DNA from: a virus
Reading direction: 5' to 3' (one strand)
Virus record (IMG/VR): IMGVR_UViG_3300013132_000145
Span: 1 to 32,681 of that record
DNA: 32,681 bases
The translations under genes were made by a program, and so were the position numbers. Under the pieces are notes generated by a model that made no database searches, was not told the origin of the DNA, and was given only the letters and a program-made list of their open reading frames with translations. Shown piece by piece: positions 1 through 31,673 of this stretch (its first letter is position 1; every line of letters begins with the position of its first letter).

Positions 1-123
1 CCAAGAACTCCAGCGCATTATTTTGAAAGGCTTTGCAGAGAAGCACAAGCAAACAACTATTATTCTCTTTTCACTGTTTACGATAATACGAGCATAGATG
101 CGGAAGTCATAGACATCTATTGC
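1..123. repeat. Terminal overlap, copy 1 (identical to 32559-32681)
   Basis: The first 123 bases are identical to the last 123 bases of the window. The repeat lies inside the large-terminase gene, and joining the ends keeps that reading frame intact. This is what an assembled circular or circularly permuted genome looks like, giving about 32,558 unique bases. A true packaged direct terminal repeat is less likely because the boundary falls at an arbitrary point in a coding sequence. Confidence 0.93.
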
Positions 124-18849: not shown

Positions 18850-19241
18850 TAAACAAACAATTTATTGTTTTTTGTTTGGTGGTATTGCCAAGCTGTTCTA
18901 GTGTTGTAGAGAGACAAACTCCTTCAACAGAAATTGCAAAAACAATAATAAAAGAAAGTGTCGATGGGAACCTAACAAAGTCGCACAGAAAAATTTTACT
19001 AGCAAGCTTAGAAGATTTAGATCGGCAAATTTTAGCACAATCAAAAGGCTATGATGAGCTAACAAAAAAATATGAAACATTGGAAAAAGACTATGACATC
19101 TTGCAGAAAAAATATGCAGAGAGCCAAAAGGATGCTGGTTGGAAAGAACTTTTGCTATGGGCTTTTTGGGGATTTATTGGAATTTTTATCCTTTGGAATG
19201 GTGCAAAATTTGTAGGAAAATTCTCTGGTTTAATTGCTTGA
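18846..19241 (+). CDS. Candidate unimolecular spanin (outer-membrane lipoprotein plus C-terminal membrane anchor)
   Basis: Read from TTG 18846, which overlaps the upstream stop as TTGA, the protein has 131 residues. It begins with a short signal (INKQFIVFCLVVLPSC) ending in a lipobox with Cys17. The middle (about 25-95) is a coiled coil. The C terminus has one Trp-rich membrane segment (about 99-119) and a short basic tail. A lipidated N terminus in the outer membrane and a C-terminal inner-membrane anchor in one chain is the u-spanin layout of phage T1 gp11. It would fuse the two membranes in the last step of lysis. This is the main evidence for a Gram-negative host. Confidence 0.78.
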   Translation: MINKQFIVFCLVVLPSCSSVVERQTPSTEIAKTIIKESVDGNLTKSHRKILLASLEDLDRQILAQSKGYDELTKKYETLEKDYDILQKKYAESQKDAGWKELLLWAFWGFIGIFILWNGAKFVGKFSGLIA

Positions 19242-19292: not shown

Positions 19293-20759
19293 ATGCAAAC
19301 AGAACAAATAATAGAATTTAAGCCAGATCGGGCTTTTTGGAATAGATGGAGAGATAGCAAGACAGAATTGCTGAGGGCAGGTTTCCGAGTTTTCAAACGT
19401 GGCGACGATTGGATTGGCACACAGCGCATCTGGATTGATGAGCCAGATCCAATTTTTTTGGGCAATCTCCCAGAGCTAACAGACACAAGCAATCTTCGAG
19501 AATACCAACTGCCATCGGTGCAAAGGTTAGTTTATGCAGTGCGAACCTATGGCGGTGGATTAGATCAATCGGACACTGGAACTGGGAAAACATATGTGGC
19601 GTTAGGTGTCGCAAAAAACTTAGGACTGCCTGTTTTTATTGTTTGTCCCGTGCCTGCTATTCCAAGTTGGAAAAGAGCAATAAAACTGACAGAGACAGAA
19701 TGCCTGGGGATAGTCAACTATGAGCATCTAAGAACTAAAAAAAATAAATATGTCGATAGGGATAAAGAGGAAATCTTTTTGCATGATTGTTTGGTGATTT
19801 ACGACGAAGCGCACAAAGTCAAAAACATTGACACGATCAATTCTGAAATTGCGTTACTATTCTACCAAAAAAAGTACAAAATGCTTTTCTTGTCTGCGAC
19901 GTTAGCGGACAAACCACAACAGCTCGAAACCGTGGCTAGGTGTTCTGGTTTATTGGATAGGCAATCTTGGAATGGTTTTTTGTCTAGGATTGGTGTCTCG
20001 ATTGTCCAGGGAACTTGGGGCATCGAATATGCTTACAGTCCAGACAGTTTTCGAAAACTTAACAAGATTTTGGTTGAGGAATGTAGAGCCACTAGAATCA
20101 GGAAAGCAGATTTGCCAGAGCAATTCAAGAAAGCTATCATTGAACCGATCCTAGTGGACTTTGGGAAAGAAGTTCAAAAAGCCTATTCTGAGTTATACGA
20201 CAAAATTTTACACTACGAAAAGTTGGAAGACAAAGCCACTGGACTTGTAGAGACTTTGAGAGCCAGGCAAAAATGCGAACTAGCCAAAGTCGGTTGGTTT
20301 GTTTCAAGTGCTAGGGAATACATGGAAGAAGGTTTGTCTGTGATATGTTTTGTGAATTTCAGGGAAACTGGGCAGGCAATAGCAGAACAGTTGCAATGTG
20401 ATTTTATTTTTGGAGATAGGACTCCAGAAGAAAGAGAAGGTATGCGCCAAAGATTCCAAAGGAATGAGAACCATTGTTTGGTGCTAACAAGTGCAACAGG
20501 TGGAGCGAGCATTGATTTGCACGACATAGCAGGAAGACAAAGAATTTCTCTTATTAGTCCTACATGGTCAGCACAAGAACTTTTGCAAATTTTTGGCAGG
20601 ACAGATCGAGATGGAAGCTTGTCACCTAGCATTTGCAAAATTGTCTTTGCCGAAAGTACAATAGAAGAATCGGTTTATGAATCCGTCTTAGGAAAAGTTG
20701 AAAACATTTCTACATTGAACGATGGAGACATGCAAAGTTTTTCCTTGACAAAAGTCTAA
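19293..20759 (+). CDS. SNF2-like SF2 DNA helicase
   Basis: A 488-residue helicase. The ATP site is DTGTGKT (Lys99). Motif II is YDEAHK (D171, E172, A173, H174), motif III is LSATLADKP near 200, and motif VI is QIFGRTDRDG (Arg436 and Arg439). The C-terminal RecA-like half includes VICFVNFRETGQAIA and a TSATGGASIDLHD motif V. The family remodels DNA or displaces protein. Upstream of recT and the nuclease, it probably serves replication or recombination. Transcription starts at or near the ATG. Confidence 0.88.
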   Translation: MQTEQIIEFKPDRAFWNRWRDSKTELLRAGFRVFKRGDDWIGTQRIWIDEPDPIFLGNLPELTDTSNLREYQLPSVQRLVYAVRTYGGGLDQSDTGTGKTYVALGVAKNLGLPVFIVCPVPAIPSWKRAIKLTETECLGIVNYEHLRTKKNKYVDRDKEEIFLHDCLVIYDEAHKVKNIDTINSEIALLFYQKKYKMLFLSATLADKPQQLETVARCSGLLDRQSWNGFLSRIGVSIVQGTWGIEYAYSPDSFRKLNKILVEECRATRIRKADLPEQFKKAIIEPILVDFGKEVQKAYSELYDKILHYEKLEDKATGLVETLRARQKCELAKVGWFVSSAREYMEEGLSVICFVNFRETGQAIAEQLQCDFIFGDRTPEEREGMRQRFQRNENHCLVLTSATGGASIDLHDIAGRQRISLISPTWSAQELLQIFGRTDRDGSLSPSICKIVFAESTIEESVYESVLGKVENISTLNDGDMQSFSLTKV

Positions 20760-20794
20760 AAAAATAAAAATAAATAACAAAGGAGTCAAGCAAT

Positions 20795-20851
20795 ATGCCT
20801 AAAATGGGAAAACCAGCAGCAAAGAAAAAACCTGTTATGCCAAAAAAATAA
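20795..20851 (+). CDS. 18-residue Lys/Pro/Met microprotein
   Basis: ATG 20795 behind AAAGGAG opens MPKMGKPAAKKKPVMPKK and ends in TAA. The ribosome site is one of the better ones in the genome. It resembles the other Lys-rich microproteins at 5648 and 17039. It lies in the gap between the helicase and recT. Function unknown. Confidence 0.5.
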   Translation: MPKMGKPAAKKKPVMPKK

Positions 20852-20863
20852 CACAAGCAAGGT

Positions 20864-20889
20864 TTCCATGTTCCTACAAAAACATGGAA
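20864..20889 (+). promoter_or_regulatory. Hairpin in the recT leader
   Basis: TTCCATGTT (20864-20872) pairs perfectly with AACATGGAA (20881-20889) over nine bases with an eight-base loop. It ends 16 bases before the recT ATG and leaves the ribosome site free. It has no following T run, so it is more likely an mRNA stability or translation element, or an operator, than a terminator. Confidence 0.55.
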
Positions 20890-20905
20890 TTTCAAAGGAA
20901 AAAAA

Positions 20906-21745
20906 ATGACAACAACAACAAAAACAAACGAACTGGCAACAGTTCTCACGAGTAACAAAGAAAAGATTGAACTTCTGTTAGCAGGAAGTCCAGTCAATCC
21001 TAACCAATTTTTGGCGATTGCTTCCAGAGTGATTGGCGAAAACCTTATTGGATGCACACCCGAAAGCGTAAAAAAATCAGTGCTTTCGGTGGCGACACTA
21101 GGGCTTTCTCCAGACCCGACTTTAGGCAATGCGTACATCTTGCCGTATGACAGCAAAGCGGGAAAGATTGCGCAGCTTATCATTGGTTACAAGGGCTACA
21201 TAGTACTTGCTAGGCGAGCTGGATATGAAGTTTTGCAATACGGAGCAATCCACGAAAACGACATATTTGAAGATGCGCCTGCAGGTGAGGCACCAAGGTA
21301 TTCAAAAGCCAGAACTAACAGAGGATCATTGCAAGGTGCCTTTTGTGTAGTTAGGGCATTGAATACAAAAACAATCACCTACACAGTGCTTTGGGAAGAA
21401 GAGATTGCAAGAGCGAAAAAATCAAGCAAATCATCAAGCAGTGATTATTCGCCTTGGAAAACTTCTCCCGATGAAATGTATGTGAAAACTGCTCTTCGTT
21501 ACCACCTAAGCAGATTGCCATTAGCGGACAAATGGAAAGAAATTATTGCAGGTGATGACGAACAAGAGTTTGAAAAACCTATAAATGATTCGCCTATCAT
21601 TGCACAGCTGAAAGCAAAGCTTGAAGTGATTAGAGGTTCTGAATTTGAGGAAGCGGAAATCGAATCTTTACGCAGTGAGTTTGAGGAAAACAAGGAAAGA
21701 ATCAGTGCTGAAGACTATACAAAAGCATTGGAACTTTTGAAGTAG
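20906..21745 (+). CDS. recT: RecT-family single-strand annealing protein
   Basis: A 279-residue protein of usual RecT length. The family features are visible: FLAIASRVIGENL near 36, then CTPESVKKSVLSVATLGLSP and GNAYILPYD, and an IGYKGYIVLARRAGY segment around 94-108. The C-terminal tail (about 225-279) is acidic and helical. It anneals complementary strands after end resection. The nuclease at 21958 is the natural partner. AAAGGAAAAAAA provides the ribosome site. Confidence 0.93.
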   Translation: MTTTTKTNELATVLTSNKEKIELLLAGSPVNPNQFLAIASRVIGENLIGCTPESVKKSVLSVATLGLSPDPTLGNAYILPYDSKAGKIAQLIIGYKGYIVLARRAGYEVLQYGAIHENDIFEDAPAGEAPRYSKARTNRGSLQGAFCVVRALNTKTITYTVLWEEEIARAKKSSKSSSSDYSPWKTSPDEMYVKTALRYHLSRLPLADKWKEIIAGDDEQEFEKPINDSPIIAQLKAKLEVIRGSEFEEAEIESLRSEFEENKERISAEDYTKALELLK

Positions 21746-21759
21746 AAGAAAAAATATGG

Positions 21760-21781
21760 CAAGCCTTGAAACATAGGCTTG
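21760..21781 (+). promoter_or_regulatory. Hairpin between recT and the next gene
   Basis: CAAGCCT (21760-21766) pairs with AGGCTTG (21775-21781) with an eight-base loop. It is just before the AAAAGGA site of the next gene. A six-codon ORF (MASLET, 21756-21776) runs across it, possibly by chance. A processing or translation-control hairpin is likely; the following bases are not a T run. Confidence 0.5.
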
Positions 21782-21799
21782 TCAAAAGGATTAAACAAA

Positions 21800-21961
21800 A
21801 TGGAAAAAAAATATGTTAGACGATACCAGACTTTATTTATTAAAGATCGGGCAATCTACGAAGAGATTAAAAACACATTGCCAGAAGGAATGAAGCTCGC
21901 ACACTATATTGAAATCATTGTAAAACTAGGATTAGAAGAACATAAAAAAGTCAAAGCATGA
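21800..21961 (+). CDS. Small hypothetical protein, possibly DNA-binding
   Basis: A 53-residue Lys-rich protein with a helical pattern (IYEEIKNTLPEGMKLAHYIE, then IIVKLGLEEHK) that could be a ribbon-helix-helix or short helix-turn-helix fold. I choose ATG 21800, which follows AAAAGGATTA, over a TTG at 21779. It overlaps the nuclease start by ATGA. Function unassigned. Confidence 0.6.
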   Translation: MEKKYVRRYQTLFIKDRAIYEEIKNTLPEGMKLAHYIEIIVKLGLEEHKKVKA

Positions 21962-22527
21962 ATAAAGCAGACGGGAAATTTTTTGTGTTTGATAGCTTGA
22001 GCCATCAATACTTATGCAATGGCAATCCTATTCCTAGCGTAACAAAAATCATAGGAAGTAACAAAGCTTATGACACTGTTCCAAAGGAAGTCTTGGAGCA
22101 AGCAAAACTGGATGGAACGAAAAGACATTACGAAATTGAAATGCTTCTCAAACATGGGAAAGCTGTGTCGCCTTACGCAAAAAAAATTGATCAATACCTT
22201 TTTGGACAAATGAGAGATTATGAAATTGTTTGCTTCGAAGAACCATTATTTAGCGATAGTTTGTTTTTTGGTGGCACACCAGACTTGGTTATGCGAAAGA
22301 AAAACGAATGGGCGATATTAGATTGGAAAAGAAACATAGCAGGAAACAGACTTCATTACGAATTGCAGTTAGCTGGCTATGCAATCTTGACAGATAACAA
22401 AGCTAAGATTTGGAGATTGATTGTAGGAGACGAAGCCAAAAGAATGGACATTTACAATCCATTGGCAATTGGAATGTTTCGGACACTTTTGGGAGCCTAC
22501 AACATAAGACAAAACCTAGAAAACTAG
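21958..22527 (+). CDS. PD-(D/E)XK nuclease, RecE/Cas4-like partner of RecT
   Basis: A 189-residue nuclease. His57 (RHYEIE), Asp109 (GGTPDLVMR), Asp122 and Lys124 (ILDWKRN) and the downstream Gln137 and Tyr141 (LQLAGY) match the PD-(D/E)XK exonuclease pattern. A viral exonuclease with an annealing protein is a standard recombination pair: the nuclease resects ends and RecT anneals them. It starts in an ATGA overlap with the small gene upstream. Confidence 0.83.
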   Translation: MNKADGKFFVFDSLSHQYLCNGNPIPSVTKIIGSNKAYDTVPKEVLEQAKLDGTKRHYEIEMLLKHGKAVSPYAKKIDQYLFGQMRDYEIVCFEEPLFSDSLFFGGTPDLVMRKKNEWAILDWKRNIAGNRLHYELQLAGYAILTDNKAKIWRLIVGDEAKRMDIYNPLAIGMFRTLLGAYNIRQNLEN

Positions 22528-22573
22528 GAAAAATCTGGGGAAAAATCTGGGGAAATCCCTTGGGAAACCTAGG
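22515..22573. repeat. CCTAGG-rich repeat cluster upstream of the first ribozyme promoter
   Basis: CCTAG (22515-22519) and CTAGG (22524-22528) flank an AAAA loop. Two tandem copies of AAAAATCTGGGG follow (22529-22540 and 22541-22552), and a CCTAGG palindrome lies at 22568-22573. The cluster begins in the nuclease stop region and ends about 40 bases before the -35. It could bind a regulator of that promoter. Part of it could also fold as a hairpin. Confidence 0.5.
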
Positions 22574-22613
22574 AAAAAAGTGAAAAAAAAAGAATAATAA
22601 ATAAAAAAAAAGT

Positions 22614-22642
22614 TTGACACTTTTAGGGAAAAGTTGTCTAAT
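22614..22642 (+). promoter_or_regulatory. Sigma70-type promoter of ribozyme cassette 1
   Basis: TTGACA (22614-22619), 17 bases, TCTAAT (22637-22642), preceded by a long A run. Spacing and both hexamers match the promoter of cassette 2 at 27457 exactly. Confidence 0.85.
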
Positions 22643-22662
22643 GAATACAGGAGATAAAAAAC

Positions 22663-22842
22663 ATGGAAATAAACCACTCGGAGTACATCAAAAAAACCAA
22701 AAAAATGAGCGAACACTCATTGCGATATGTAATACAAGATTGCCAGGCTGCAATAAAAGCATATCCCGAAAATCCAAAATGCGGTTACTACATGGACGAG
22801 ATCCACTACTGCGCCATGGAGCTGAGAACACGCAAAAAATAA
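22663..22842 (+). CDS. Leader ORF of ribozyme cassette 1
   Basis: A 59-residue protein: ATG 22663 behind CAGGAGATAAAAAAC. It includes MSEHSLRYVIQDCQAAIKAY, then PENPKCGYYMDEIHYCAMEL, and ends RTRKK. I recognise the SLRYVIxD to KCGYYxDExHYCAMEL pattern as a small phage protein family found in many phages, so it is a real gene. Its TAA (22840-22842) abuts the first base of the ribozyme. A longer frame at 22614-22847 is a shadow. Confidence 0.82.
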   Translation: MEINHSEYIKKTKKMSEHSLRYVIQDCQAAIKAYPENPKCGYYMDEIHYCAMELRTRKK

Positions 22843-22904
22843 TCTAGCCTGAAGATGGGGAGGTGGTTCCTTCCCGAAACTCCGAGAGGAGTCGCTAGAA
22901 ACCA
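22843..22904 (+). ncRNA. Type I hammerhead ribozyme, copy 1
   Basis: Stem I is open: TCTAGC (22843-22848) pairs with GCTAGA (22894-22899). The core CTGAAGA (22849-22855) fits CUGANGA. One extra U (22856) precedes stem II, GGGGAGG (22857-22863) with CCTTCCC (22869-22875), loop UGGUU. GAA (22876-22878) leads to stem III, ACTCC (22879-22883) with GGAGT (22888-22892), closed by a GAGA tetraloop. Cleavage is predicted after C22893 in the GUC triplet. UGGU in loop II can pair with ACCA (22901-22904). An extra base after A9 is known from the chrysanthemum chlorotic mottle viroid hammerhead. Activity is inferred. Confidence 0.93.
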
Positions 22905-22921
22905 AAAAGGAGATAAAAAAG

Positions 22922-23110
22922 ATGAAACTTACGGAAATAAAAAACAGGATCAAAAACTCGGTGCTTTTTTATGAAGAGGATTTCTGCCACATTAGAAACC
23001 AGAGCCTGGAAGCAGCACTAAAACGAGCAGTCTGGAATCGTTTTGGAAATCAAAATAGAAAAAAATTCTACATTGATTGTGAGACGATGCAAATGTTAGA
23101 GAACGAATAG
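22922..23110 (+). CDS. Small protein expressed from ribozyme-processed mRNA, cassette 1
   Basis: A 62-residue protein starting MKLTEIKNRIKNS, with AAGGAGATAAAAAAG as its ribosome site. Exactly 28 bases separate the predicted ribozyme cleavage point from the ATG. Helical, Arg/Asn-rich (EAALKRAVWNRFGNQNRKKF). The first eight residues match the start of the gene after ribozyme 2, but the rest does not, so the similarity may reflect a shared leader unit rather than shared function. No known domain. Confidence 0.78.
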   Translation: MKLTEIKNRIKNSVLFYEEDFCHIRNQSLEAALKRAVWNRFGNQNRKKFYIDCETMQMLENE

Positions 23111-23119
23111 GAGATAAAA

Positions 23120-23782
23120 ATGGAAACAATAGAAGACATTAAACCAGAAAACATTGCTTTTGTCTATGTAGGCAATAAAGAAGATTTGGAACGAGCAGTT
23201 TTTTTAGTCAAAAAACTCAAAGACTTGCGAACCAATGTAATCGAGTATTGGAGCAATCCAAAAAAACAGGCGCACGATGCCTGGAAATCCATTGTCGCAA
23301 AAGAGAAAGAAATGTTAGACAGGTTAGACGGAGTAATTCAAACACAAAATAACCTGATCACAACTTTTGTCCAGGAAGAAGAAAAACGAAAACAGGAATT
23401 GGAAAGACAAGCAAAAATCCAGGCAGAAAAAGAAGCAGAGATAGAACGAAAAAGACTTGAAAGCCTTGCCAAAAAAGAGGAAAAAAAAGGTAATCTTGAG
23501 CTAGCAGAAAGCCTGCGATTAGAAAAAGAATCGGTTTTTGCAATAACGCAGGCACCTATTGAGTCAGCGGTTGACACGACAAACGGTGTGCATTCGAGGC
23601 AGGAACTTAGCGCAGATGTAACAAATTTGGATGCCTTTGTGAAAGCTTTGGTTAGCCATGGATACTCTTTGCAAATGTTAGACGTCAAAAAAGCAGTTCT
23701 AAAATCTTGGGTCAAGTCCAATGGAATCAAAAACTTCCCAGGACTTAGCATAACAATCGAAAAAAAGGCGGTTATCAGATAA
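23120..23782 (+). CDS. Coiled-coil protein of the replication region
   Basis: A 220-residue protein behind AGGAGATAAAA. Residues 20-60 are helical with a KKLKDLRTNVIEYWSNPKK motif. A highly charged coiled coil fills about 65-140 (Lys/Glu/Gln-rich). The last 55 residues are globular (VSHGYSLQMLDVKKAVLKSW, then GIKNFPGLSI and a basic end). I associate this C-terminal pattern with phage recombination-region proteins of unknown function. A DNA-binding or complex-scaffolding role is plausible. Confidence 0.7.
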   Translation: METIEDIKPENIAFVYVGNKEDLERAVFLVKKLKDLRTNVIEYWSNPKKQAHDAWKSIVAKEKEMLDRLDGVIQTQNNLITTFVQEEEKRKQELERQAKIQAEKEAEIERKRLESLAKKEEKKGNLELAESLRLEKESVFAITQAPIESAVDTTNGVHSRQELSADVTNLDAFVKALVSHGYSLQMLDVKKAVLKSWVKSNGIKNFPGLSITIEKKAVIR

Positions 23783-23783
23783 C

Positions 23784-23975
23784 ATGAATAAGATTTCAGG
23801 AACAATAAACAATCCCCAGGACTACTGGGGTTGGAAATACACGGCAAAAAAAAGATTTTTAGTCGGGAGAATAGTTGCAGTTGCAGATAAGATAGACTTA
23901 ACTTTTGAGGAAGCTTTTGCAAAGGCAATGCGTCAAAAAGATTTGATATTAGAAAATGACAAGAGGAGAACCTAA
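23784..23975 (+). CDS. Small hypothetical protein
   Basis: A 63-residue basic protein starting MNKISGTINNPQDYWGWKYT, followed by a helix AFAKAMRQKDLILEN. The start is one base after the previous stop, so translation coupling is likely. No known family. Confidence 0.6.
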   Translation: MNKISGTINNPQDYWGWKYTAKKRFLVGRIVAVADKIDLTFEEAFAKAMRQKDLILENDKRRT

Positions 23976-23976
23976 C

Positions 23977-24060
23977 ATGCTTTCTATGATATTGTGCTGT
24001 CTATTGCTATTCGGTTTTATTCACCTAGTCGATTATGTAGATCGAAAACTAGACATTTGA
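23977..24060 (+). CDS. 27-residue membrane microprotein
   Basis: ATG 23977 behind AAGAGGAGAA opens MLSMILCCLLLFGFIHLVDY and a short charged end (VDRKLDI). The first 18 residues are a membrane span. Its TGA overlaps the TTG start of the HNH gene, so the two are coupled. A good ribosome site and the overlap support a real gene. Function unknown. Confidence 0.65.
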   Translation: MLSMILCCLLLFGFIHLVDYVDRKLDI

Positions 24061-24386
24061 AAAAAACAAAACCTTACGACTACAAGCGATTTGTGATTTC
24101 TGCAAGTCGCCTTATTTTTTTTAGATCACCTATCAGAAGAGCAGTCGCCAAACGGTGCTTTGTCTCCAAGGGACTTTATGTTTGCGAGCTATGCAAAAAA
24201 CCTACTGACAAAATCCAAGTAGATCACATAAAACCTATCGGACTTTCGAAAGATTGGAATGAATTTTTTGAATTTTTATTTTGCTCCCTTGACGAACTCC
24301 AGGGAATTTGTAAATCTTGCCATGATAAAAAAACAACAAAAGACAAAAATGAAATGAGGAAGACACATGGAAAAAGAAAGACTTAG
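24057..24386 (+). CDS. HNH endonuclease
   Basis: A 109-residue protein read from TTG 24057, which overlaps the upstream stop as TTGA. Zinc-binding pairs are C43-x2-C46 and C85-x2-C88, with the catalytic DH (D56, H57) in VDHIKPIG and the final His89 (CKSCHD), the usual HNH layout. HNH proteins occur near terminases for packaging or as free nucleases; here it lies next to the primase-helicase, so a replication or recombination role is more likely. It is compact and has no extra domain. Confidence 0.84.
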   Translation: MKKTKPYDYKRFVISASRLIFFRSPIRRAVAKRCFVSKGLYVCELCKKPTDKIQVDHIKPIGLSKDWNEFFEFLFCSLDELQGICKSCHDKKTTKDKNEMRKTHGKRKT

Positions 24387-26832
24387 CTTTGACTTGGACA
24401 CCTACAACGACACAGTCAAAAGAACTGTAGAACAACGATTAGGCTTTGAACACAATAGCACAGGCGGAAAACAAAAACAATGTGCATGCGGACAACGAAA
24501 AGGAAACGATTGCAAATTCTACTACAAACAAGAATCTGGAACTTACAAATGTTTTCATCAAAACAAATGTGGACTTCCTAGCCTTACGGGAAACTACCAC
24601 GACTTAAACAAGCACCTGGGAATTGTTAGCAAGGAAGAAGTCAAAGAAGCAATTCCAGAAGAAAAGAAAATTCGAAAAACTAACACAGCGGAACCAGATT
24701 ACATTTACAGGTATTCAGATGGAAACATTGCGTATGGTGTTAAGCGATACGAATGGAAGGATCAGGAAACTGGGAAAAAACAAAAATCTTTTAATCCTGC
24801 TTACAAAAACACAGAAGGCAATTGGGAAATAGTTAGAACCAAAGCGGAAAACTATGAGGAGCAGAAACAAACATTTGCTAAGATTCCAAAGGTACTATAC
24901 AACTCGGACAAGATAGCAAAAGCAAAATACATCTGGATAGTGGAAGGAGAAAAGTGTGCGGACAGATTGCAAAAGGAATTTGATGGTTTTGTTTTGGATG
25001 AATACAACACAGGGACTTTCGCTTATCAGTTAGGTGATCATGCAGTAGTGACAAACATTCACGGTGCAGGAAAATGGAGGGAAGAGTACACTTTCCAAAT
25101 AAAGGAATTGGCACCTAACGCAACACTGATCATTTTACCAGATAACGACGAAGCAGGAAAGCGACATGCAAGAGACATTTGGGAGAGCCTTGGAAAGCTT
25201 CCGAAAGTAATTATTCCAGGTGGACTGGAAACCAAACAGGATATATTCGACTGGTTAGAAATGGGATGTGACATTGCACAGCTTTGTTTTTATGCAGACG
25301 AAAACACAGAAGAAATGAATGCCATCCATGATTTTTTGCAAGATGACTATTGGGAAAAACCACAAAACAACAGCAATCCGAAAGAAGATAAGCTTTACGA
25401 ACTGAATGAAGTTGGAAGTTGTGATAGGTTCTTGGATATGTTTGGCGACGATTTTATTTACGTCAAAAAAATTGGATGGTACTTTTGGAATAAAACACAC
25501 TGGGAAGAGGACGAATCTGGTGCAAAAGTCAAACAAAGAATAATCGAAAGCTTGTATGCGTTACGTGCTTATGAGCTAACACTAGGCGAAGAACAAAGAG
25601 CGGACAAAATAAAAATAAGAAACTTTTACAATGTTAGCATGACAGAAAGAAAGATTACAGCTGTTATGAAGATTGCAGAAACCAATCCAAAGGTTCGACG
25701 GAATGCGAATGTTTTGAATAACAAGCCAGACTACTTGAATGTCGAAAATGGTGTGTTAGACTTACGATCTGGAATCATTTTGCCACATGACAAAAAGTAT
25801 TATTTTACAAGAGTAATTCCAGTTGCCTATCCGAGGATTGGGAAGGGACTTCCGCTTAATGCACCAATCTGGAAAGACTTTTTAGCTACTACATTTTTGC
25901 AAAACCAGGAACTTATTGAATACATCCAGATCATGATGGGATACAGTCTAACGGGACTTACAAAAGAGCAGTGTGTATTTTTTATGACTGGAACTGGAAG
26001 GAATGGTAAATCCACCTTCATAAAAGTTTTGCAACAGTTATTAGGTGGCTATTACAAAAAGCTAAACACGGAAAGCCTTATGGATAGAAACAATGTGAGT
26101 CCTATCAATAACGACATAGCAAGATTGTATGATAGCAGATTGGTTGTTTGTTCTGAAGTCGAAGAGGGAAGAATGTGGAACCAGGCTCTCATGAAAGACT
26201 TATCAGGTGGAGATGAAATCTCAGCAAGGTTTATGCGTCAAGAGTATTTTGATTTTATGCCACAATTTAAGCTTTGGATTTATGGGAACTATAAACCCAC
26301 ATTAAAAGGATTAGACGAAGGAACTAAGCGAAGGTTTCGCATATTGCCTTTTGATGCAAAGATAGAACTTGAGAAAGTAAAAAAAGATCTGGACGAACAA
26401 CTCAAAACGGAACTTCCGCAGATCCTTGCTTGGACGGTGGACGGTGCTGTGAAGTATTACAAACACAAGGAAAAGGGACTTGCAATCAAAATTCCTGAAG
26501 TTGTTAGCAAAGCCACTGAAGACTATTTTATTGACAACGATCCGCTTTTCGCATGGCTAGAAGATTATTTTGGAAACGAAGGTTCCCTCATGTTAGAACT
26601 CCCAGACAAGATAAGCAAAAAAGAATTGTATAAATCTTACAAAGAGCATGCGGAAGAAGTAGGGAACAAAGCGTTTGGCGACAAAGCATTCACGAGGAAA
26701 ATGAAAGATCACGGGTTAGTTGACAAGGTAATATGGTTAGACGGGAAAAGCATTCGAGGCTTCTCAGGACTTAGTATTTTACGTGAAAAATTCCTAGCAC
26801 GCCAGGAAAAAAATGTCGAAGATTTCGAATGA
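24367..26832 (+). CDS. Primase-helicase (TOPRIM plus D5-type SF3 helicase)
   Basis: An 821-residue protein. The N terminus has a zinc-binding pattern (C39, C41, C49, C62, C68). A TOPRIM-like centre follows: the Glu of IVEGEKCADRL near 190-200 and the Asp of ILPDNDEAGKRHA near 255-270. The helicase half carries the Walker A GTGRNGKS (Lys548), a CSEVEEG Walker B region near 595 and the Asn of IYGNYKP (Asn641). A C-terminal domain (about 720-821) is likely accessory. It unwinds DNA and makes primers at the origin. No polymerase gene is visible, so host polymerase is inferred. The origin-like DNA lies just downstream. It overlaps the HNH gene by 20 bases. Confidence 0.92.
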   Translation: MEKERLSFDLDTYNDTVKRTVEQRLGFEHNSTGGKQKQCACGQRKGNDCKFYYKQESGTYKCFHQNKCGLPSLTGNYHDLNKHLGIVSKEEVKEAIPEEKKIRKTNTAEPDYIYRYSDGNIAYGVKRYEWKDQETGKKQKSFNPAYKNTEGNWEIVRTKAENYEEQKQTFAKIPKVLYNSDKIAKAKYIWIVEGEKCADRLQKEFDGFVLDEYNTGTFAYQLGDHAVVTNIHGAGKWREEYTFQIKELAPNATLIILPDNDEAGKRHARDIWESLGKLPKVIIPGGLETKQDIFDWLEMGCDIAQLCFYADENTEEMNAIHDFLQDDYWEKPQNNSNPKEDKLYELNEVGSCDRFLDMFGDDFIYVKKIGWYFWNKTHWEEDESGAKVKQRIIESLYALRAYELTLGEEQRADKIKIRNFYNVSMTERKITAVMKIAETNPKVRRNANVLNNKPDYLNVENGVLDLRSGIILPHDKKYYFTRVIPVAYPRIGKGLPLNAPIWKDFLATTFLQNQELIEYIQIMMGYSLTGLTKEQCVFFMTGTGRNGKSTFIKVLQQLLGGYYKKLNTESLMDRNNVSPINNDIARLYDSRLVVCSEVEEGRMWNQALMKDLSGGDEISARFMRQEYFDFMPQFKLWIYGNYKPTLKGLDEGTKRRFRILPFDAKIELEKVKKDLDEQLKTELPQILAWTVDGAVKYYKHKEKGLAIKIPEVVSKATEDYFIDNDPLFAWLEDYFGNEGSLMLELPDKISKKELYKSYKEHAEEVGNKAFGDKAFTRKMKDHGLVDKVIWLDGKSIRGFSGLSILREKFLARQEKNVEDFE

Positions 26833-26885
26833 GAAAGCAGTCTATTTTTGAAGCCAATAAGCTTCACCTTTTTGAAAGACTTTCG

Positions 26886-26917
26886 GGTGAGGAGGAGAGT
26901 GATGACTCCTCCTTGCC
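26886..26917 (+). promoter_or_regulatory. Strong GC-rich hairpin after the primase-helicase gene
   Basis: GGTGAGGAGGAG (26886-26897) pairs with CTCCTCCTTGCC (26906-26917) over 12 bases with two G-U pairs and an eight-base loop. There is no immediate T run, so by itself it is not a classic terminator. It may protect the 3' end or act with the terminator 52 bases further on. A weak ORF overlaps it at 26829. Confidence 0.6.
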
Positions 26918-26968
26918 AATTCTCAGTTTTTATTGTTTCAACTTTCTATCTCCATCCAAACACCACTT

Positions 26969-26992
26969 GCCCAAAACCTGGGCTTTTTTTTT
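26969..26992 (+). terminator. Intrinsic terminator of the replication operon
   Basis: GCCCA (26969-26973) pairs with TGGGC (26979-26983), loop of five, followed by nine Ts (26984-26992). A clear rho-independent form, which ends the transcript from the promoter at 22614. Confidence 0.85.
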
Positions 26993-27062
26993 GCCAATTT
27001 CCTTCCATCAAAAAGCTAGGCACGAATTTCTGTGCTGTGCCGTCTAATAGCTTGTTAGGTGT

Positions 27063-27260
27063 AATTCCTTACATTCTTACACTTTTTGCACTGCACCATG
27101 AACAAAAGTTATTTCTGTTCAGGAGATTCTGAACAAGTGCGGATTTTGTTCAGGAAAAATTCTCCAAAAAACTGTAATTTTGTAGGGTTTTGTAAGGTTT
27201 TTGTAAGGCAGTTTGAGCCAATAAAATCAAGGGTTTTAGGCAATTCCTTACATTCTTACA
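27063..27260 (+). repeat. 19-base direct repeat, two copies
   Basis: AATTCCTTACATTCTTACA occurs at 27063-27081 and again at 27242-27260, identical, each followed after one base by a T run. The copies start 179 bases apart in the non-coding region. Confidence 0.9.
27099..27155. repeat. Two tandem palindromic sites, 31-bp spacing
   Basis: TGAACA-N11-TGTTCA occurs at 27099-27121 and again at 27130-27152. Both have TGAACAA at the left and TGTTCAGGA at the right. The copies start 31 bases apart, close to three helical turns, so two dimers would sit on the same DNA face. No matching regulator is identified. Confidence 0.88.
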
Positions 27261-27263
27261 GTT

Positions 27264-27293
27264 TTTTTAAGGTTAATATATATTCCTTAAAAA
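27264..27293. repeat. Inverted repeat with AT-only centre
   Basis: TTTTTAAGG (27264-27272) and CCTTAAAAA (27285-27293) are perfect inverted copies around TTAATATATATT. It directly follows the second 19-base direct repeat. The AT-only centre would melt easily, as in an origin unwinding element. Confidence 0.8.
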
Positions 27294-27456
27294 GCATTTT
27301 CTTATACTAACATGTATTAGGTTTTTCTTGCTAGTAGAAGTAATAGGGAAAATGGCTTCCAAGTGTAAGGTCGTAAGGCAGGAAAAATCGTTCAAAGATT
27401 GAACACAAAAAGGCGTAAAAAAAAGAAAAAAAATGGAAAAAAAAGAATAAAAAAGA

Positions 27457-27485
27457 TTGACAGAATCTTAGGAGAAATGTCTAAT
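27457..27485 (+). promoter_or_regulatory. Sigma70-type promoter of ribozyme cassette 2
   Basis: TTGACA (27457-27462), 17 bases, TCTAAT (27480-27485), preceded by a long A-rich run. Same hexamers and spacing as cassette 1. Confidence 0.85.
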
Positions 27486-27506
27486 CTATACAGGAGAACG
27501 AAAGAC

Positions 27507-27683
27507 ATGAAACTCAAAAACAAAACAACAATCAAATTCAGCGCAGACCAAAGAGCGCAAATTCTCAGGGACTTGGAACTTAGGAATTTCTTTTTTGCAT
27601 ATACCCAACATGTGCTTAGTTTGGATGGGCATGCAGTTTTGGCGCAATGCAAAAAGAAAACTTGGGTACTTTATGATGTCTAA
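27507..27683 (+). CDS. Leader ORF of ribozyme cassette 2
   Basis: A 58-residue protein from ATG 27507 behind CAGGAGAACGAAAG. A longer frame starting upstream at 27399 reads through the promoter and an A run, so I reject its extra 36 residues. It is basic at the N terminus (KLKNKTTIKFSADQRAQILR) with a hydrophobic middle (NFFFAYTQHVLSL) and ends TWVLYDV. It has no similarity that I see to leader ORF 1. Its TAA lies one base before the ribozyme. Confidence 0.72.
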   Translation: MKLKNKTTIKFSADQRAQILRDLELRNFFFAYTQHVLSLDGHAVLAQCKKKTWVLYDV

Positions 27684-27684
27684 G

Positions 27685-27743
27685 CTAGCCTGATGATGGG
27701 GAGGTGGTCACTCCCCGAAACCCTTCGGGGTCGCTAGAAACCA
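27685..27743 (+). ncRNA. Type I hammerhead ribozyme, copy 2
   Basis: Stem I CTAGC (27685-27689) with GCTAG (27733-27737). Core CTGATGA (27690-27696), then the same extra U (27697). Stem II GGGGAG (27698-27703) with CTCCCC (27711-27716), loop GUGGUCA. GAA (27717-27719), then stem III ACCC (27720-27723) with GGGT (27728-27731), closed by a UUCG tetraloop. The triplet is GUC, with cleavage after C27732. UGGU (27705-27708) can pair with ACCA (27740-27743), as in copy 1. Compared with copy 1 the pairs change together while the core stays, which supports an RNA structure. Activity is inferred. Confidence 0.94.
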
Positions 27744-27760
27744 AATAGGAGATAAAAAAA

Positions 27761-28021
27761 ATGAAACTTTCTGAAATAAAAAATTTGATTTTAATATGTG
27801 ACAACAGGCTGAGTGACGTTATAGAGCTAATGAATCAGGATGACTACGAAAAATTTTTGGACGAGTCGAACGAGGAATGGAAATCAGATTTTGATGGCAA
27901 TGAATATAAGTATGAATATGAATATGACTTTGACTGTCCTACATTGCGAGAAGCATTTGGAAGAGGCTATAGCATAAGATCACTGCTGGAATTATACTTG
28001 ATACAACAAACTAGGAAATAA
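27761..28021 (+). CDS. Acidic protein expressed from ribozyme-processed mRNA, cassette 2
   Basis: An 86-residue, strongly acidic protein. It starts MKLSEIKNLILICDNRLSDV; the first eight codons resemble the gene after ribozyme 1 in DNA as well as protein. Acidic and Tyr-rich in the middle (about 40-60), helical at the end. AGGAGATAAAAAAA precedes the ATG and 28 bases separate it from the predicted cleavage point. DNA-mimic or host-takeover roles are possible from the charge, but there is no domain evidence. Confidence 0.76.
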   Translation: MKLSEIKNLILICDNRLSDVIELMNQDDYEKFLDESNEEWKSDFDGNEYKYEYEYDFDCPTLREAFGRGYSIRSLLELYLIQQTRK

Positions 28022-28025
28022 AACC

Positions 28026-28223
28026 ATGAACATAAGTCCGTATGACGAACCAACCCTTTACGATGAATTGTTTATATCGTTCTGGTATGAGAACCAAGAT
28101 TTGGAAGAAAACGAGATTCGCAGAATGGTAGAAGAGGAAATAAAACTTATTGAGGAATGCGATACGGCTGCACTAGCTTACGAGATGCAATATGAACAAG
28201 ACAACTACATTTACTACGATTGA
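28026..28223 (+). CDS. Acidic hypothetical protein
   Basis: A 65-residue, strongly acidic protein (many Glu and Asp, Tyr-rich end). Starts ATG 28026, four bases after the previous stop. The next gene begins inside its end. Acidic composition like its upstream neighbour suggests a pair. No domain. Confidence 0.62.
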   Translation: MNISPYDEPTLYDELFISFWYENQDLEENEIRRMVEEEIKLIEECDTAALAYEMQYEQDNYIYYD

Positions 28224-28482
28224 TACAGCGGAGCTTACTTTTAAGGAAGTTTTCCATTTGTACTACTATGAAGTAAAGCCAGCTTGCATTGACACAGTGC
28301 AAGTGTGGCTGAGAAAAAATAAAATTCCAAGGATAAGGAAAGGTGTGTTCTCAAAGGAACTTGTCACCAAACTAATAGAAAGCGAAAAAAACAAGCGAAA
28401 AACAAAAGATGAAATAATTCAAGAATTGACAAAAGAAATTGAAAGACTCAAAAAACAAATAGGAGATAGGAAAAAAATATGA
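28192..28482 (+). CDS. Helix-turn-helix-like protein with C-terminal coiled coil
   Basis: A 96-residue protein. Residues about 13-60 (ELTFKEVFHLYYYEVKPACI, then VQVWLRKNKIPRIRKGVFSK) look like an excisionase or MerR-type winged helix: a helix pair followed by a basic wing. Residues about 65-93 form a Lys/Glu coiled coil that could dimerise it. It overlaps the previous gene by 32 bases and the next by ATGA. A regulator of the phage promoters or the palindromes at 27099 is possible but unproven. Confidence 0.6.
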   Translation: MNKTTTFTTIDTAELTFKEVFHLYYYEVKPACIDTVQVWLRKNKIPRIRKGVFSKELVTKLIESEKNKRKTKDEIIQELTKEIERLKKQIGDRKKI

Positions 28483-28685
28483 ACTACCAGGAAGAAAAAC
28501 ACTTTAGAGACATCGGTACAACAGATGCACTTTATTGCATAGCAGTCGGTCACAATTATTATTTCTGGGCAGATAAGGATGCCAGGTTTAGATTTTATGA
28601 GCTATGCAAACAGTACTGGTCTAGGGACTGGAAACAAATACTAAAGGCAATTAGGCGAATTAAAAAGGAATGCAGTGGGGAATAA
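28479..28685 (+). CDS. Small hypothetical protein
   Basis: A 68-residue protein starting in an ATGA overlap. Aromatic-rich (HNYYFWADKDARFRFYELCK) with a basic C terminus (AIRRIKKECSGE). No membrane segment. Translated in front of the methyltransferase gene. Confidence 0.6.
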   Translation: MNYQEEKHFRDIGTTDALYCIAVGHNYYFWADKDARFRFYELCKQYWSRDWKQILKAIRRIKKECSGE

Positions 28686-28688
28686 TAT

Positions 28689-29651
28689 GTGAATTTTTTG
28701 GATTTGTTTTCTGGCATTGGTGGTTTTAGGTTAGGTGCAGAATGGGCAGGCGTAAAGTTTGAGCATGAATTTCACAGTGACATAGAACCTTTTGCCAATA
28801 AAGTTTATGCAAAACATTTTCCACAATCAATCCAGTTAGGAGATGTGCAACAAATCGATGGAACAAAACTTAAAGAACAATATGGAAAGGAATGGATTAT
28901 CACAGGCGGATTTCCTTGCCAAGACATTTCCGTTGCTGGAAAGGGATTTGGAATTTCTGGAGAAAGGTCCAGTCTTTGGTTTGAAATGCAAAGAATTCTT
29001 GGCGAGCTACGACCACGTTATGCGATCATGGAAAATGTCCCAGCTCTCACTTTTCGAGGACTCGACAGAGTTCTTGGATCGCTTGCCGACATCCGGTATG
29101 ATGCGGAATGGACGACTGTATCGGCTCGAGACGTTGGAGCTTCCCACTTACGAAAACGAATTTGGATCATTGCCTACACCCAGGAACAACAAAGTGAAAT
29201 GCGTGACTCCGAACCTAGCAAACCGGAACAAATGCAATTTGGAAGAATCAACTGCAAAAATGAATTTTCCGACACCAACCAAAAACGACAAGAATGGAAT
29301 CACGAATCTAAGAACAGACAACAACTTAGCGAAAGGCGGAATGCACGGAGTGAGCTTGCCACATTTGATTCACAAGATGAACTTTCCAACACCGACAAAA
29401 TCAGATTCGGAAGGCGGTCTTCACAAGAACGGAGAAGCCGGGAAAGTTCGTTCAACGGGAGCAAAGACTGGTCAATCTCTGAAATGGTTCAAGCCTATAA
29501 CGGACACTTACAATGGCAAAGGACATTTGAACCCGAATTTGTGCGAGTGGTTGATGGGATACCCAATCAACTGGACCGCATTGGAGCCTGTGGAAATTCC
29601 ATTGTGCCACAGATAGCAGAAATAATTTTTAGATTGATTAAAGGAGAATAA
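28689..29651 (+). CDS. DNA (cytosine-5) methyltransferase
   Basis: A 320-residue protein from GTG 28689. Motif I is DLFSGIGGFRLG (from D5). The catalytic PC is GGFPCQDIS (Cys77), the ENV motif is MENVPAL (E115), and LRKRIWIIAY gives the QxRxR-type motif near 153-160. The C-terminal GNSIVPQIAEIIF closes the fold. Residues about 165-285 are unusual, low in hydrophobics and rich in Gln, Arg, Ser and Asn. That stretch coincides with the second frame at 28843-29616, so it is probably constrained by dual coding. It would methylate cytosine in the phage or host DNA, probably to avoid restriction. Confidence 0.9.
   Translation: MNFLDLFSGIGGFRLGAEWAGVKFEHEFHSDIEPFANKVYAKHFPQSIQLGDVQQIDGTKLKEQYGKEWIITGGFPCQDISVAGKGFGISGERSSLWFEMQRILGELRPRYAIMENVPALTFRGLDRVLGSLADIRYDAEWTTVSARDVGASHLRKRIWIIAYTQEQQSEMRDSEPSKPEQMQFGRINCKNEFSDTNQKRQEWNHESKNRQQLSERRNARSELATFDSQDELSNTDKIRFGRRSSQERRSRESSFNGSKDWSISEMVQAYNGHLQWQRTFEPEFVRVVDGIPNQLDRIGACGNSIVPQIAEIIFRLIKGE
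28843..29616 (+). CDS. Overprinted gene in the +1 frame of the cytosine methyltransferase
   Basis: A 257-codon frame lies wholly inside the methyltransferase gene. It contains LAKTFPLLERDLEFL, then SYDHVMRSWKMSQLSLFED, LPTSGMMRNGRLYRL, three LPTP or FPTP motifs (as in GSLPTPRNN), and GHLNPNLCEWLMGYPINWTA. I recognise this order (SW-TSQ, P-SGMMRNG, LPTP, NP--EWLMGYP-GW) as a recurring phage protein, from memory. Both frames therefore carry known patterns over the same DNA. ATG 28843 and ATG 28882 are possible starts; neither has a strong ribosome site. A modification-related role is suggested by position only. Confidence 0.62.
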   Translation: MCNKSMEQNLKNNMERNGLSQADFLAKTFPLLERDLEFLEKGPVFGLKCKEFLASYDHVMRSWKMSQLSLFEDSTEFLDRLPTSGMMRNGRLYRLETLELPTYENEFGSLPTPRNNKVKCVTPNLANRNKCNLEESTAKMNFPTPTKNDKNGITNLRTDNNLAKGGMHGVSLPHLIHKMNFPTPTKSDSEGGLHKNGEAGKVRSTGAKTGQSLKWFKPITDTYNGKGHLNPNLCEWLMGYPINWTALEPVEIPLCHR

Positions 29652-29656
29652 CAGAC

Positions 29657-29806
29657 ATGACACGAGAAGACTACTTACAACACAAATTGGAAGCCTTGCA
29701 AGATGTCTTGATTAAAATACACAAAAATGAAGACTTAACAAAGGAAGACTCCATTGCGTTATACGAGGCTTTGAAAGATGGACTTAAACGAACTGAAGAA
29801 ACTTAA
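29657..29806 (+). CDS. 49-residue acidic hypothetical protein
   Basis: ATG 29657 behind AAAGGAGAATAACA opens MTREDYLQHKLEALQDVLIK and a helical remainder, ending TEET. Strong ribosome site. The next gene begins within it. No known domain. Confidence 0.62.
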   Translation: MTREDYLQHKLEALQDVLIKIHKNEDLTKEDSIALYEALKDGLKRTEET

Positions 29807-29954
29807 CGAAGACAACGAGCATTTTCCATTCTGTTTTGCAATCTCCAAAGACAAGACGGAAATCCTCTTCACCTATCACAACCAAGTCCAAGGAATTTTG
29901 CCTGAAGAAATTGCAAAAAAAATTATTCTTTTGCTAGATTCCTACTTGACATAG
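29778..29954 (+). CDS. 58-residue hypothetical protein overlapping the previous gene
   Basis: ATG 29778 lies 29 bases before the upstream stop. The protein has a helix (LNELKKLNEDNE), a beta-like core (FCFAISKDKTEILFTYHNQ) and a hydrophobic helix (PEEIAKKIILLLDSYLT). Its end contains the -35 of the next promoter. Unknown function. Confidence 0.58.
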   Translation: MDLNELKKLNEDNEHFPFCFAISKDKTEILFTYHNQVQGILPEEIAKKIILLLDSYLT

Positions 29955-29974
29955 CAAAAAAACCTATCTAAGTT
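29946..29974 (+). promoter_or_regulatory. Promoter inside the end of the previous gene, probably leaderless
   Basis: TTGACA (29946-29951), 17 bases, TAAGTT (29969-29974), or TCTAAG at 15 bases (29967-29972). The next ATG is at 29981, six bases after the first option, without a ribosome site. Geometry matches the helicase promoter. Confidence 0.55.
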
Positions 29975-29980
29975 CAAGCC

Positions 29981-30193
29981 ATGAACATGTCCTGGGCTTT
30001 GGTTATTATTTGCACAGAGATTCTAATTGTTATTATTCTCCTAGAACATCTTAGAGCGAAACGGAACCCAATCGAACAAAAGCCTGCAACAGAAATAGAC
30101 TACATTTTAGAGCGCATCAAAACCTTGGAAGATCAACTTTCTAGTGTTAGGATAAGCCAAGGCATAATCAAAAAAAGGGAAGTGAATTTATGA
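29981..30193 (+). CDS. Small membrane protein
   Basis: A 70-residue protein with an N-terminal membrane segment (MSWALVIICTEILIVIILLE, residues 3-22) and then a basic, coiled-coil-like cytoplasmic part (about 38-65). No Shine-Dalgarno precedes it, consistent with a leaderless message from the promoter at 29946. It overlaps the next gene by ATGA. Confidence 0.66.
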   Translation: MNMSWALVIICTEILIVIILLEHLRAKRNPIEQKPATEIDYILERIKTLEDQLSSVRISQGIIKKREVNL

Positions 30194-30474
30194 GTAAGGA
30201 TTCCCACAAAATTCTAAACAAACCTTTTCGCCTTCCAAGTGGATCAAAAAAGAAATTTGGAGTCTATGTAAAAAGCAAATCGGGAAACATAATCAAAGTG
30301 ACATTTGGTGATCCTAACATGGAAATCCGAAGAGACAATCCTAACGCCAAAAAGAATTTTAGATCAAGGCATGGATGCGGAACAGACAGAGCAGACGACA
30401 AAACAAAAGCAGCGTACTGGTCTTGCAAGATGTGGTCAGACAAACCAGTGAGCCAAGTAACAAAAGGAAAATGA
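30190..30474 (+). CDS. Small conserved phage protein
   Basis: A 94-residue basic protein, starting KDSHKILNKPFRLPSGSKKK, then FGDPNMEIRRDNPNAKKNF, RSRHGCGTDRADDKTKAAYW and a SCKMW end. I recognise the FGDPNMEIRRD and YWSCKMW pattern as a small phage protein usually found near head or methyltransferase genes. Two Cys and a His could bind metal. Overlaps both neighbours by ATGA. Function unknown. Confidence 0.78.
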   Translation: MSKDSHKILNKPFRLPSGSKKKFGVYVKSKSGNIIKVTFGDPNMEIRRDNPNAKKNFRSRHGCGTDRADDKTKAAYWSCKMWSDKPVSQVTKGK

Positions 30475-31673
30475 GCTTGGAACAAACAATCAAAATTCCT
30501 ATTGCACAAATCAAACCAAACCCATCTAACCCACGTATTATTAAAGATGAAAAATATAAAAAACTAGTGCAGTCAATACAAGACTTTCCAGAAATGTTAG
30601 AGCTTCGTCCTATCGTGGTCAATGACGACATGATTGTACTAGGTGGAAATATGAGACTCAAAGCTTGCAAAGAGGCAGGCATAAAAGAAATTCCTATTCT
30701 AAAAACCAGTCAACTAACAGAAGAACAAGAAAGAGAATTCATCATTAAAGATAACTTAGGTTATGGCGAATGGGATTGGGCAATGTTAGGCGCAGAATGG
30801 GACATGGAACAGCTGGATGACTGGGGATTGGATTTGCCTGAATTCAAAACAGAACTTGTAGCTGAAGAAGACGACTTCGAGATACCAGAAGAAATCAAGA
30901 CCGACATTGTGTTCGGCGACTTGTTTGAGATTGGGCCGCACCGTTTGCTTTGTGGTGACTCGACAATGATTGACAACGTCGAGAAGCTAATGAATGGAGA
31001 GAAGGCGGATATGGTGTTTACTGATCCGCCTTATGGTGATAATCATGCTGGAATGACTTGGAAAAATAAAAAAGTAATAAAAACTGAAAAAATAAAAAAT
31101 GATATTAATATCGATTTTTTAGAAGATGTTTTTAATAACGCAATTATTTTTCTAAAAGAAAATTTTTCAGCTATCATTTTTTTCAAATGGAATCATTGGG
31201 AAAAAATAAAACAATATACAAAATCATTTGGTGAACCAAAAACCTGTATTGTTTGGGACAGAAATGAAATAGCCGCCGCTAATTTTAGATTTAATCCTTG
31301 CCATGAATTCGCTTTTTATTTTGGAACACAAAGAGATAAAAAAACAAAAAGTAATTTAAGAAATGTTTGGAGAGCAAAAAAAGAATATGAATCAAAAAAA
31401 CTACATCCAACAGTGAAACCACAAGAAATAATAATACCTGCGTTAGAAGTATGCACAGAAAAATACGAAATTATTTTAGACCTATTTCTCGGCTCAGGTT
31501 CAACAATGGTAGCATCCCACCAACTGAAACGCAAATGCTATGGTATGGAATTAGATCCTAAGTACTGTCAGGTGATTGTGGACAGAATGATCAAGCTTGA
31601 TCCTACTTTAGAAATAAAACGAAACGGAAAAATTTATGAACAAAAATCAGTCGAGAAGCAGTCATGCCAATAA
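30471..31673 (+). CDS. ParB-like nuclease domain fused to DNA methyltransferase
   Basis: A 400-residue protein from ATG 30471 behind AAAGGAAA; a GTG-type start upstream would add 32 residues that run through the previous gene. Residues 8-90 are a ParB-like N domain with the GGNMRLKA box near 58-65. Residues 145-400 are an N6-adenine or N4-cytosine methyltransferase: DPPY (185-188), then LHPTVKP (311-317) and DLFLGSGST (337-345) in the permuted beta-class order. The stretch between DPPY and HPTVKP, where target recognition lies, is clearly A/T-richer than its surroundings. It probably marks phage DNA. Confidence 0.9.
   Translation: MSLEQTIKIPIAQIKPNPSNPRIIKDEKYKKLVQSIQDFPEMLELRPIVVNDDMIVLGGNMRLKACKEAGIKEIPILKTSQLTEEQEREFIIKDNLGYGEWDWAMLGAEWDMEQLDDWGLDLPEFKTELVAEEDDFEIPEEIKTDIVFGDLFEIGPHRLLCGDSTMIDNVEKLMNGEKADMVFTDPPYGDNHAGMTWKNKKVIKTEKIKNDINIDFLEDVFNNAIIFLKENFSAIIFFKWNHWEKIKQYTKSFGEPKTCIVWDRNEIAAANFRFNPCHEFAFYFGTQRDKKTKSNLRNVWRAKKEYESKKLHPTVKPQEIIIPALEVCTEKYEIILDLFLGSGSTMVASHQLKRKCYGMELDPKYCQVIVDRMIKLDPTLEIKRNGKIYEQKSVEKQSCQ

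Follow-up and report, generated by a model that had tools for sequence, protein, structure and literature searches.

What hammerhead ribozymes (HHRs) do in phage genomes has been a standing question since they were discovered there, and the locus at 22843-22904 raises it again in the window, by which we mean the whole 32,681-base stretch of an IMG/VR virus record that was analysed. Here, two copies with a parallel layout (promoter, small gene, ribozyme, next gene) make the hypothesis of message processing testable with simple reporters. We consider, with a probability of about 0.85, that each copy is an active, pseudoknot-stabilized type I hammerhead with a U at position 10 (U10), which acts as a cistron separator by its predicted cleavage. 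Copy 1 most likely splits the message at its intercistronic junction.

The first and last 123 bases of the window (1-123 and 32559-32681) form a perfect repeat, so the contig probably represents an entire phage genome, either circular or with terminal repeats. Its primase has only distant relatives among named phages and none in the IMG/VR search, and a search of GTDB genomes with the portal gave no match. By portal, the nearest named phage, which infects Silvanigrella aquatica, shows 30% identity. We dropped host assignment from the primase and portal since these relatives are too distant, and a short-DNA search of named phages returned chance matches only. Two further features lie in the window: a small ORF between the two ribozymes (23994-24386) matches an HNH endonuclease (Pfam E 3.7e-5), and 18874-18953 gave a weak, sub-threshold Rfam match to RT-9 RNA (29.9 bits, E 0.43), which is probably due to chance.

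By sequence and fold, 22843-22904 is a complete type I hammerhead ribozyme, for which self-cleavage is predicted (Table 1). A sequence-only reading had recognized the CUGANGA core, the GAA strand, the GUC triplet, the stem order with an open stem I and the GAGA loop, and our sequence analysis and RNAfold found all of these at the same bases. Stem I of copy 1 has 6 bp (UCUAGC 22843-22848 with GCUAGA 22894-22899), and the GAA strand occupies 22876-22878. The MFE and centroid structures from RNAfold are both the exact hammerhead three-way junction (-25.2 kcal/mol, z -2.87). Both copies have the CUGANGA...GAA core with A15.1-U16.1 and a GUC (NUH) triplet before the 3' strand of stem I, and both have three stems around the core with stem I open, as indicated by RNAfold and homologue covariation. 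The pseudoknot between loop II and the 3' flank had been overlooked. It supplies the tertiary contact between stem/loop II and the stem I region, and two of its five pairs show two-sided change.

Table 1. Features of the two ribozyme loci (positions in the window)
Feature	Position	Strand	Basis
Promoter-like TTGACA-N17-TCTAAT before first cistron	22614..22642	+	sequence; function inferred
First cistron of copy 1, 59-codon ORF with AGGAG ribosome-binding site; TAA 22840-22842 adjoins stem I	22663..22842	+	sequence
HHR copy 1, type I, including 3' pseudoknot strand	22843..22904	+	sequence, fold, homologues, random-window control
Copy 1 core strand CUGAAGA (C3-A9)	22849..22855	+	sequence
Copy 1 inserted U, position 10, between A9 and stem II	22856..22856	+	sequence, database counts, viroid mutagenesis literature
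Copy 1 stem II, 7 bp (22857-22863 / 22869-22875), loop UGGUU	22857..22875	+	sequence, RNAfold
Copy 1 stem III, A15.1-U16.1 plus 4 bp (22879-22883 / 22888-22892), GAGA loop	22879..22892	+	sequence, RNAfold
Copy 1 predicted cleavage site, C17 (22893) / G22894	22893..22894	+	GUC triplet in hammerhead register
Copy 1 3' pseudoknot strand AACCA, partner loop II UGGUU 22864-22868	22900..22904	+	five Watson-Crick pairs; register and covariation shared by eight homologues
Ribosome-binding site AGGAGAU of copy 1 downstream gene	22908..22914	+	sequence
Copy 1 downstream small gene, 62 aa, starts 28 nt past predicted cut	22922..23110	+	ORF
Second promoter-like TTGACA-N17-TCTAAT	27457..27485	+	hexamers and spacing as at 22614
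First cistron of copy 2, 58-codon ORF; TAA 27681-27683 adjoins ribozyme	27507..27683	+	sequence
HHR copy 2	27684..27743	+	sequence, fold, homologues, random-window control
Copy 2 downstream gene, 86 aa, starts 28 nt past predicted cut; first codons like those after copy 1	27761..28021	+	ORF

Copy 2 is nearly identical to copy 1 and also folds to the hammerhead junction. Its stem I pairs 27685-27689 with 27733-27737, followed in order by the core (27690-27696), the inserted U (27697), stem II (27698-27716), stem III (27720-27731) and a predicted cut after C27732, and its pseudoknot joins UGGU 27705-27708 to ACCA 27740-27743. The two copies have in common a 57-nt block, 91% identical, that takes in the downstream start codons. 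A scanner covering type I, II and III hammerheads on both strands of the window returned these two HHRs only, one at 22849 with 18 pairs and one at 27690 with 15; the permuted scans of both strands found no form with stem II or stem III open. When the type I search was applied to both strands of 300 Markov-1 random windows, it produced two hits in total, with scores of 14 and 15. The chance expectation is thus about 0.007 type I hits per window, as against the scores of 18 and 15 observed here.

Both copies depart from the strict core consensus, which has no extra base, by the U after A9. By analogy, we file them as a type I variant rather than exclude them because the hammerhead of CChMVd(+), accepted and active, also has a core insert at that site according to the summary in PMC3705267. 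We ran two complete IMG/VR scans in which stems II and III were defined identically, one allowing any inserted base after A9 and the other no insert, and counted matches after removing duplicates and requiring stem I. The scan with the insert gave 53 HHRs, with U in 51, A in one, G in one and C in none, and the scan without it gave 75. In GTDB bacterial and archaeal genomes, 24 HHRs carry the insert, which is U in 23 and G in one. The sequence-only reading had noted the extra U correctly, but its treatment of this base as a doubtful departure does not agree with these counts. Judging from the sequences, the extra U is a recurrent, common variant and not a doubtful core defect. Ignoring shared ancestry, U10 shows a modest association with a longer stem II element (p = 0.0013) and, under the same simplification, with pseudoknots of 4 bp or more (p = 0.018). 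U10 HHRs also occur in named bacteria, probably in prophages (loci L306, L312, L313, L314 and L317); the hosts across these five loci are Cohnella lubricantis, Paenibacillus cymbidii, Oscillibacter valericigenes and Paenibacillus selenitireducens.

The base preference can be compared with mutagenesis of a viroid. In CChMVd(+), the inserted position is naturally A, and its change to U raised trans-cleavage 3-4-fold (De la Pena and Flores 2001, summarised in PMC3705267), while C or G at this position was harmful in the same summary. Because U dominates the natural counts and, as far as that summary goes, U is faster and C or G harmful in the viroid ribozyme, the distribution of natural inserts in these sequences follows the laboratory preference. 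Our census suggests that the insertion regarded as a core defect is among the commonest phage hammerhead forms, and that the naturally favoured base is the one reported in the summary to speed the viroid ribozyme.

Related phages provided further evidence for the structure. Our search pattern fixed the stem I sequence and the core and left the inner stems and pseudoknot free, and it found an HHR in eight other phage contigs. Six of these are close relatives by structural genes, whereas the remaining two, of about 30 and 35 kb, have the ribozyme in common and no match to the tested proteins of the window. A covariance model derived from the alignment detected an HHR in one further structural relative, missed by the patterns, so that homologues are found in 9 of the 17 other phage records searched. 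The same model found no HHR in one near-full-length relative, G010, and the ribozyme is therefore not essential for this phage group. In the eight-sequence alignment, 98.1% of the cells of the structure with its pseudoknot are paired, compared with 31-59% for slid partners, and the covariation score is 0.259 against 0.132 when shuffled, with none of 500 shuffles reaching 0.259. Two-sided changes are seen at five pairs, which belong to stems II and III and the pseudoknot; among them are C-G/U-A (stem III), A-U/G-C (stem II) and, for the pseudoknot, both U-A/G-C and C-G/U-A. Since the search pattern did not demand these pairs, this support is not circular. Stem I was fixed by the first pattern and is invariant within the close family, and its support is therefore drawn from the wider scans that left it free, where stem I of at least 4 bp occurs in 53/55 and 75/79 matches. 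These compensatory changes uphold the type I identity and, together with the GUC in register, they support the earlier prediction of a cut after C22893 that would leave a 28-base leader. Two phages sharing the CUAGC-type HHR, L007 (3851, minus strand) and L008 (676, plus strand), each carry a second HHR with unrelated stems and without the extra U; in L007 the cleavage triplet of this second HHR is CUA rather than GUC.

The earlier reading had proposed a covariance-model search as a check, and the Rfam hammerhead families gave no match in the window. As a control, we applied Rfam 15 to 14 loci (L085 600-3450 and 13 others) containing dozens of well-formed HHRs, and none rose above threshold; the best score was 19.5 bits versus 48.5. 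We dropped Rfam as a judge because its models also report nothing for perfect canonical HHRs. The missing match reflects the models rather than the RNA. The prevalent inserted form is likewise suggested by the census to be overlooked by current Rfam models.

We next consider the genes around the ribozymes. Both copies lie in the sense orientation within a unit of the same order, namely TTGACA-N17-TCTAAT, ribosome-binding site, ORF of 58-59 codons, TAA, ribozyme, AGGAGAU and next ORF, with a distance of 228-229 nt from the promoter-like element to stem I. The element at 22614-22642 is not listed by a simple sigma-70 scan because position 2 of its -10 hexamer is C. Three A/T-rich blocks ending in TTGACA (19258, 22614 and 27457) precede early genes, and in the two that lie ahead of the ribozymes TCTAAT follows with a spacing of 17 nt; the repetition of these blocks in the sequence suggests a repeated early promoter. 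Copy 1 had been read as lying in an operon leader, which proved incorrect, for its stem I follows directly on the stop codon of a 59-codon ORF with a ribosome-binding site and promoter-like element of its own, and its position is intercistronic. This ORF has no Pfam family, and no family was found for the 62-aa downstream gene, whose ATG is separated from the predicted cut by 22894-22921. A 77-codon ORF (22614-22847) running into the 5' end of the ribozyme was dropped since the 59-codon ORF has the proper ribosome-binding site and start. We also rejected an intrinsic terminator, as neither ribozyme has a U-run or appears in the terminator list.

Based on this arrangement, we infer the following course of events in the cell. 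RNA polymerase would initiate at the TTGACA promoter and transcribe the 58-59 codon gene and then the ribozyme, which would cut itself co-transcriptionally after GUC when both the 3' strand of stem I and that of the pseudoknot have left the polymerase. The upstream product would be a short separate mRNA of the first small gene, ending in ribozyme hairpins and a 2',3'-cyclic phosphate, and the downstream product would be an mRNA that begins with a 5'-OH and has its own ribosome-binding site in a 28-nt leader. Placed directly past a stop codon, the ribozyme would be kept free of elongating ribosomes. The likely gain is that stability and dosage could be set separately for the promoter-proximal protein and the downstream genes. 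On the other hand, a benefit through translation initiation is not supported because the predicted unpaired probability of the copy 1 ribosome-binding site is practically the same before and after cleavage (0.78 and 0.77). Unmasking of this site by cleavage was thus rejected for copy 1, and for copy 2 the predicted change is small (0.56 to 0.70). Self-cleavage has been shown in vitro and in E. coli for related prophage HHRs of similar context (PMC3088659), and in the haloviruses HF1/HF2 the 5' end of a transcript was mapped near the predicted cut (PMC3088659).

The position beside a stop codon recurs in the wider census. Among 282 IMG/VR HHRs with sufficient flank, an upstream same-strand ORF ends within -10 to +9 nt of stem I in 227 compared with 23 in the mirrored control, descriptive figures that rest on simple ORF calls with related phages included and in which UGA, UAA and UAG triplets of the ribozyme, by closing one reading frame, may inflate the negative stop distances. 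In 206 of the 282 (control 31), a start codon with a ribosome-binding site lies at most 150 nt downstream, at a median of 36 nt. Often the stop codon falls within stem I, as UAG in CUAGC or UAA in GGUUAA, or within CUGA. The pseudoknot recurs as well: pairing of at least 4 bp between loop II and the 8 nt past stem I is possible in 94 of 172 HHRs of the inserted type versus about 37 (maximum 48) with shuffled flanks, and in 51 of 157 of the uninserted type versus about 21. Four to seven HHRs stand in a row on one strand of IMG/VR phage contigs L110, L133, L264, L085 and L138, apparently at successive gene junctions.

Because the stop codon adjoins stem I, it is possible from the sequence that cleavage is coupled to translation. 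In such a regulated, aptazyme-like or translation-coupled ribozyme, the terminating ribosome would cover stem I and the core, and cleavage would track upstream translation. The upstream stop, which in about 80% of the 282 lies on the ribozyme or at its edge and often within stem I or CUGA, and the TAA directly before both window copies are consistent with this regulation. However, genome compactness alone would yield such tight packing, and the short stems and small loops leave no conserved ligand-binding domain; we regard regulation as a minor possibility beside separation of cistrons. A broader proposal, which we offer tentatively, is that phages commonly use a natural hammerhead class with U10 and a loop II/3'-flank pseudoknot, its fast core, engineered before in the laboratory, fixed by selection and its cleavage tied to translation termination at the stop codon, which would turn polycistronic messages into separately controlled mRNAs.

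The neighbours of the ribozyme bear on whether it is instead part of a mobile or recombination-prone cassette, in which ribozyme and leader would be copied from site to site, with cleavage as an incidental feature. In the pre-portal ORF, portal and capsid-like protein, close relatives are 66-85% identical to the window, and they have no match to its helicase, RecT, nuclease, primase and methyltransferase; judging from these tested genes (19293-31673 against L284-L303), the early region looks wholly replaced. Despite differing early neighbours, the HHR of the relatives keeps a corresponding position between unrelated small ORFs, about 19-20 kb past the ORF that precedes the portal gene, and the ORFs upstream of it fall into six unrelated groups over eight sites. 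By this sequence comparison, the ribozyme appears to have outlasted its neighbours or moved among them. Copying as a cassette would account for the six unrelated upstream ORFs and for the near-identity of the 57-nt block, start codons included, before which the upstream genes of copies 1 and 2 differ. Nevertheless, the site is nearly syntenic in the relatives, and all core bases and pairs have been preserved by selection, a constraint that would be needless for a by-product. We therefore judge incidental cleavage in a copied cassette to be unlikely.

Two nearly identical HHRs on the same strand, with compatible 5'-OH and 2',3'-cyclic phosphate ends, could free a 4839-nt RNA (22894-27732) that is then circularised as in viroids and retrozymes, yet most relatives carry only one HHR, both copies come with a promoter and first gene of their own, and Perreault et al. 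searched in vain for circular products of tandem prophage HHRs (PMC3088659); we give circularisation hardly any weight. A decayed or chance fold without activity, to which the extra core base and the missing Rfam match might point, is very improbable in view of the chance expectation, the two copies, the compensatory change in homologues and an extra base that is nearly always U, the base described as beneficial in the viroid HHR in the summary cited above.

The preferred reading, an active U10 hammerhead separating cistrons, can be set beside known systems, in which the hammerhead type, the tertiary contact and the kind of host element are already known. What is new, as far as searchable papers show, is the prevalence of U10 in phages, its match to viroid mutagenesis, the invisibility to Rfam 15 and the stop-codon placement; a literature search, with subscription papers and supplements outside its scope, found no report of the phage U10 prevalence, the Rfam blindness or the viroid match. 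Perreault et al. (2011, PMC3088659) described HHRs beside single genes in phage and prophage operons and proposed processing of long phage transcripts, and they found a pseudoknot between the ends of stems I and II in about 40% of HHRs of all three types. The window copies resemble those HHRs in the consensus core, the three stems, the pseudoknot and the single-gene neighbourhood in a phage or prophage, but differ in the U inserted after A9 and in their consistent position at the upstream stop codon. Core departures of the inserted-base kind were rejected by the final filter of that study unless activity had been measured (PMC3088659). With the CChMVd(+) hammerhead, which has A10 between A9 and G10.1, they share one extra unpaired base at the identical core position; as summarised in PMC3705267, that one is a viroid RNA with loop-loop contacts and a natural A10, whereas the phage ribozymes are of type I with a pseudoknot and have U there. 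Like HHphage of the haloviruses HF1/HF2, where a 5' transcript end was mapped at most 3 nt from the predicted cut, copy 1 and copy 2 stand just upstream of a phage early gene; HHphage, however, belongs to an archaeal virus and has insertions near C3 instead of after A9 (PMC3088659). Finally, the PK hammerhead, whose crystal structure was reported by Zhan et al. (2024, PMC11300833) and which cleaves roughly tenfold faster than the extended hammerhead in the authors' buffer, likewise docks its stem II loop beside helix I through a pseudoknot and has the G8/G12 hammerhead chemistry, but it carries an extra stem-loop and a pistol-like fold that are both absent from the window copies.
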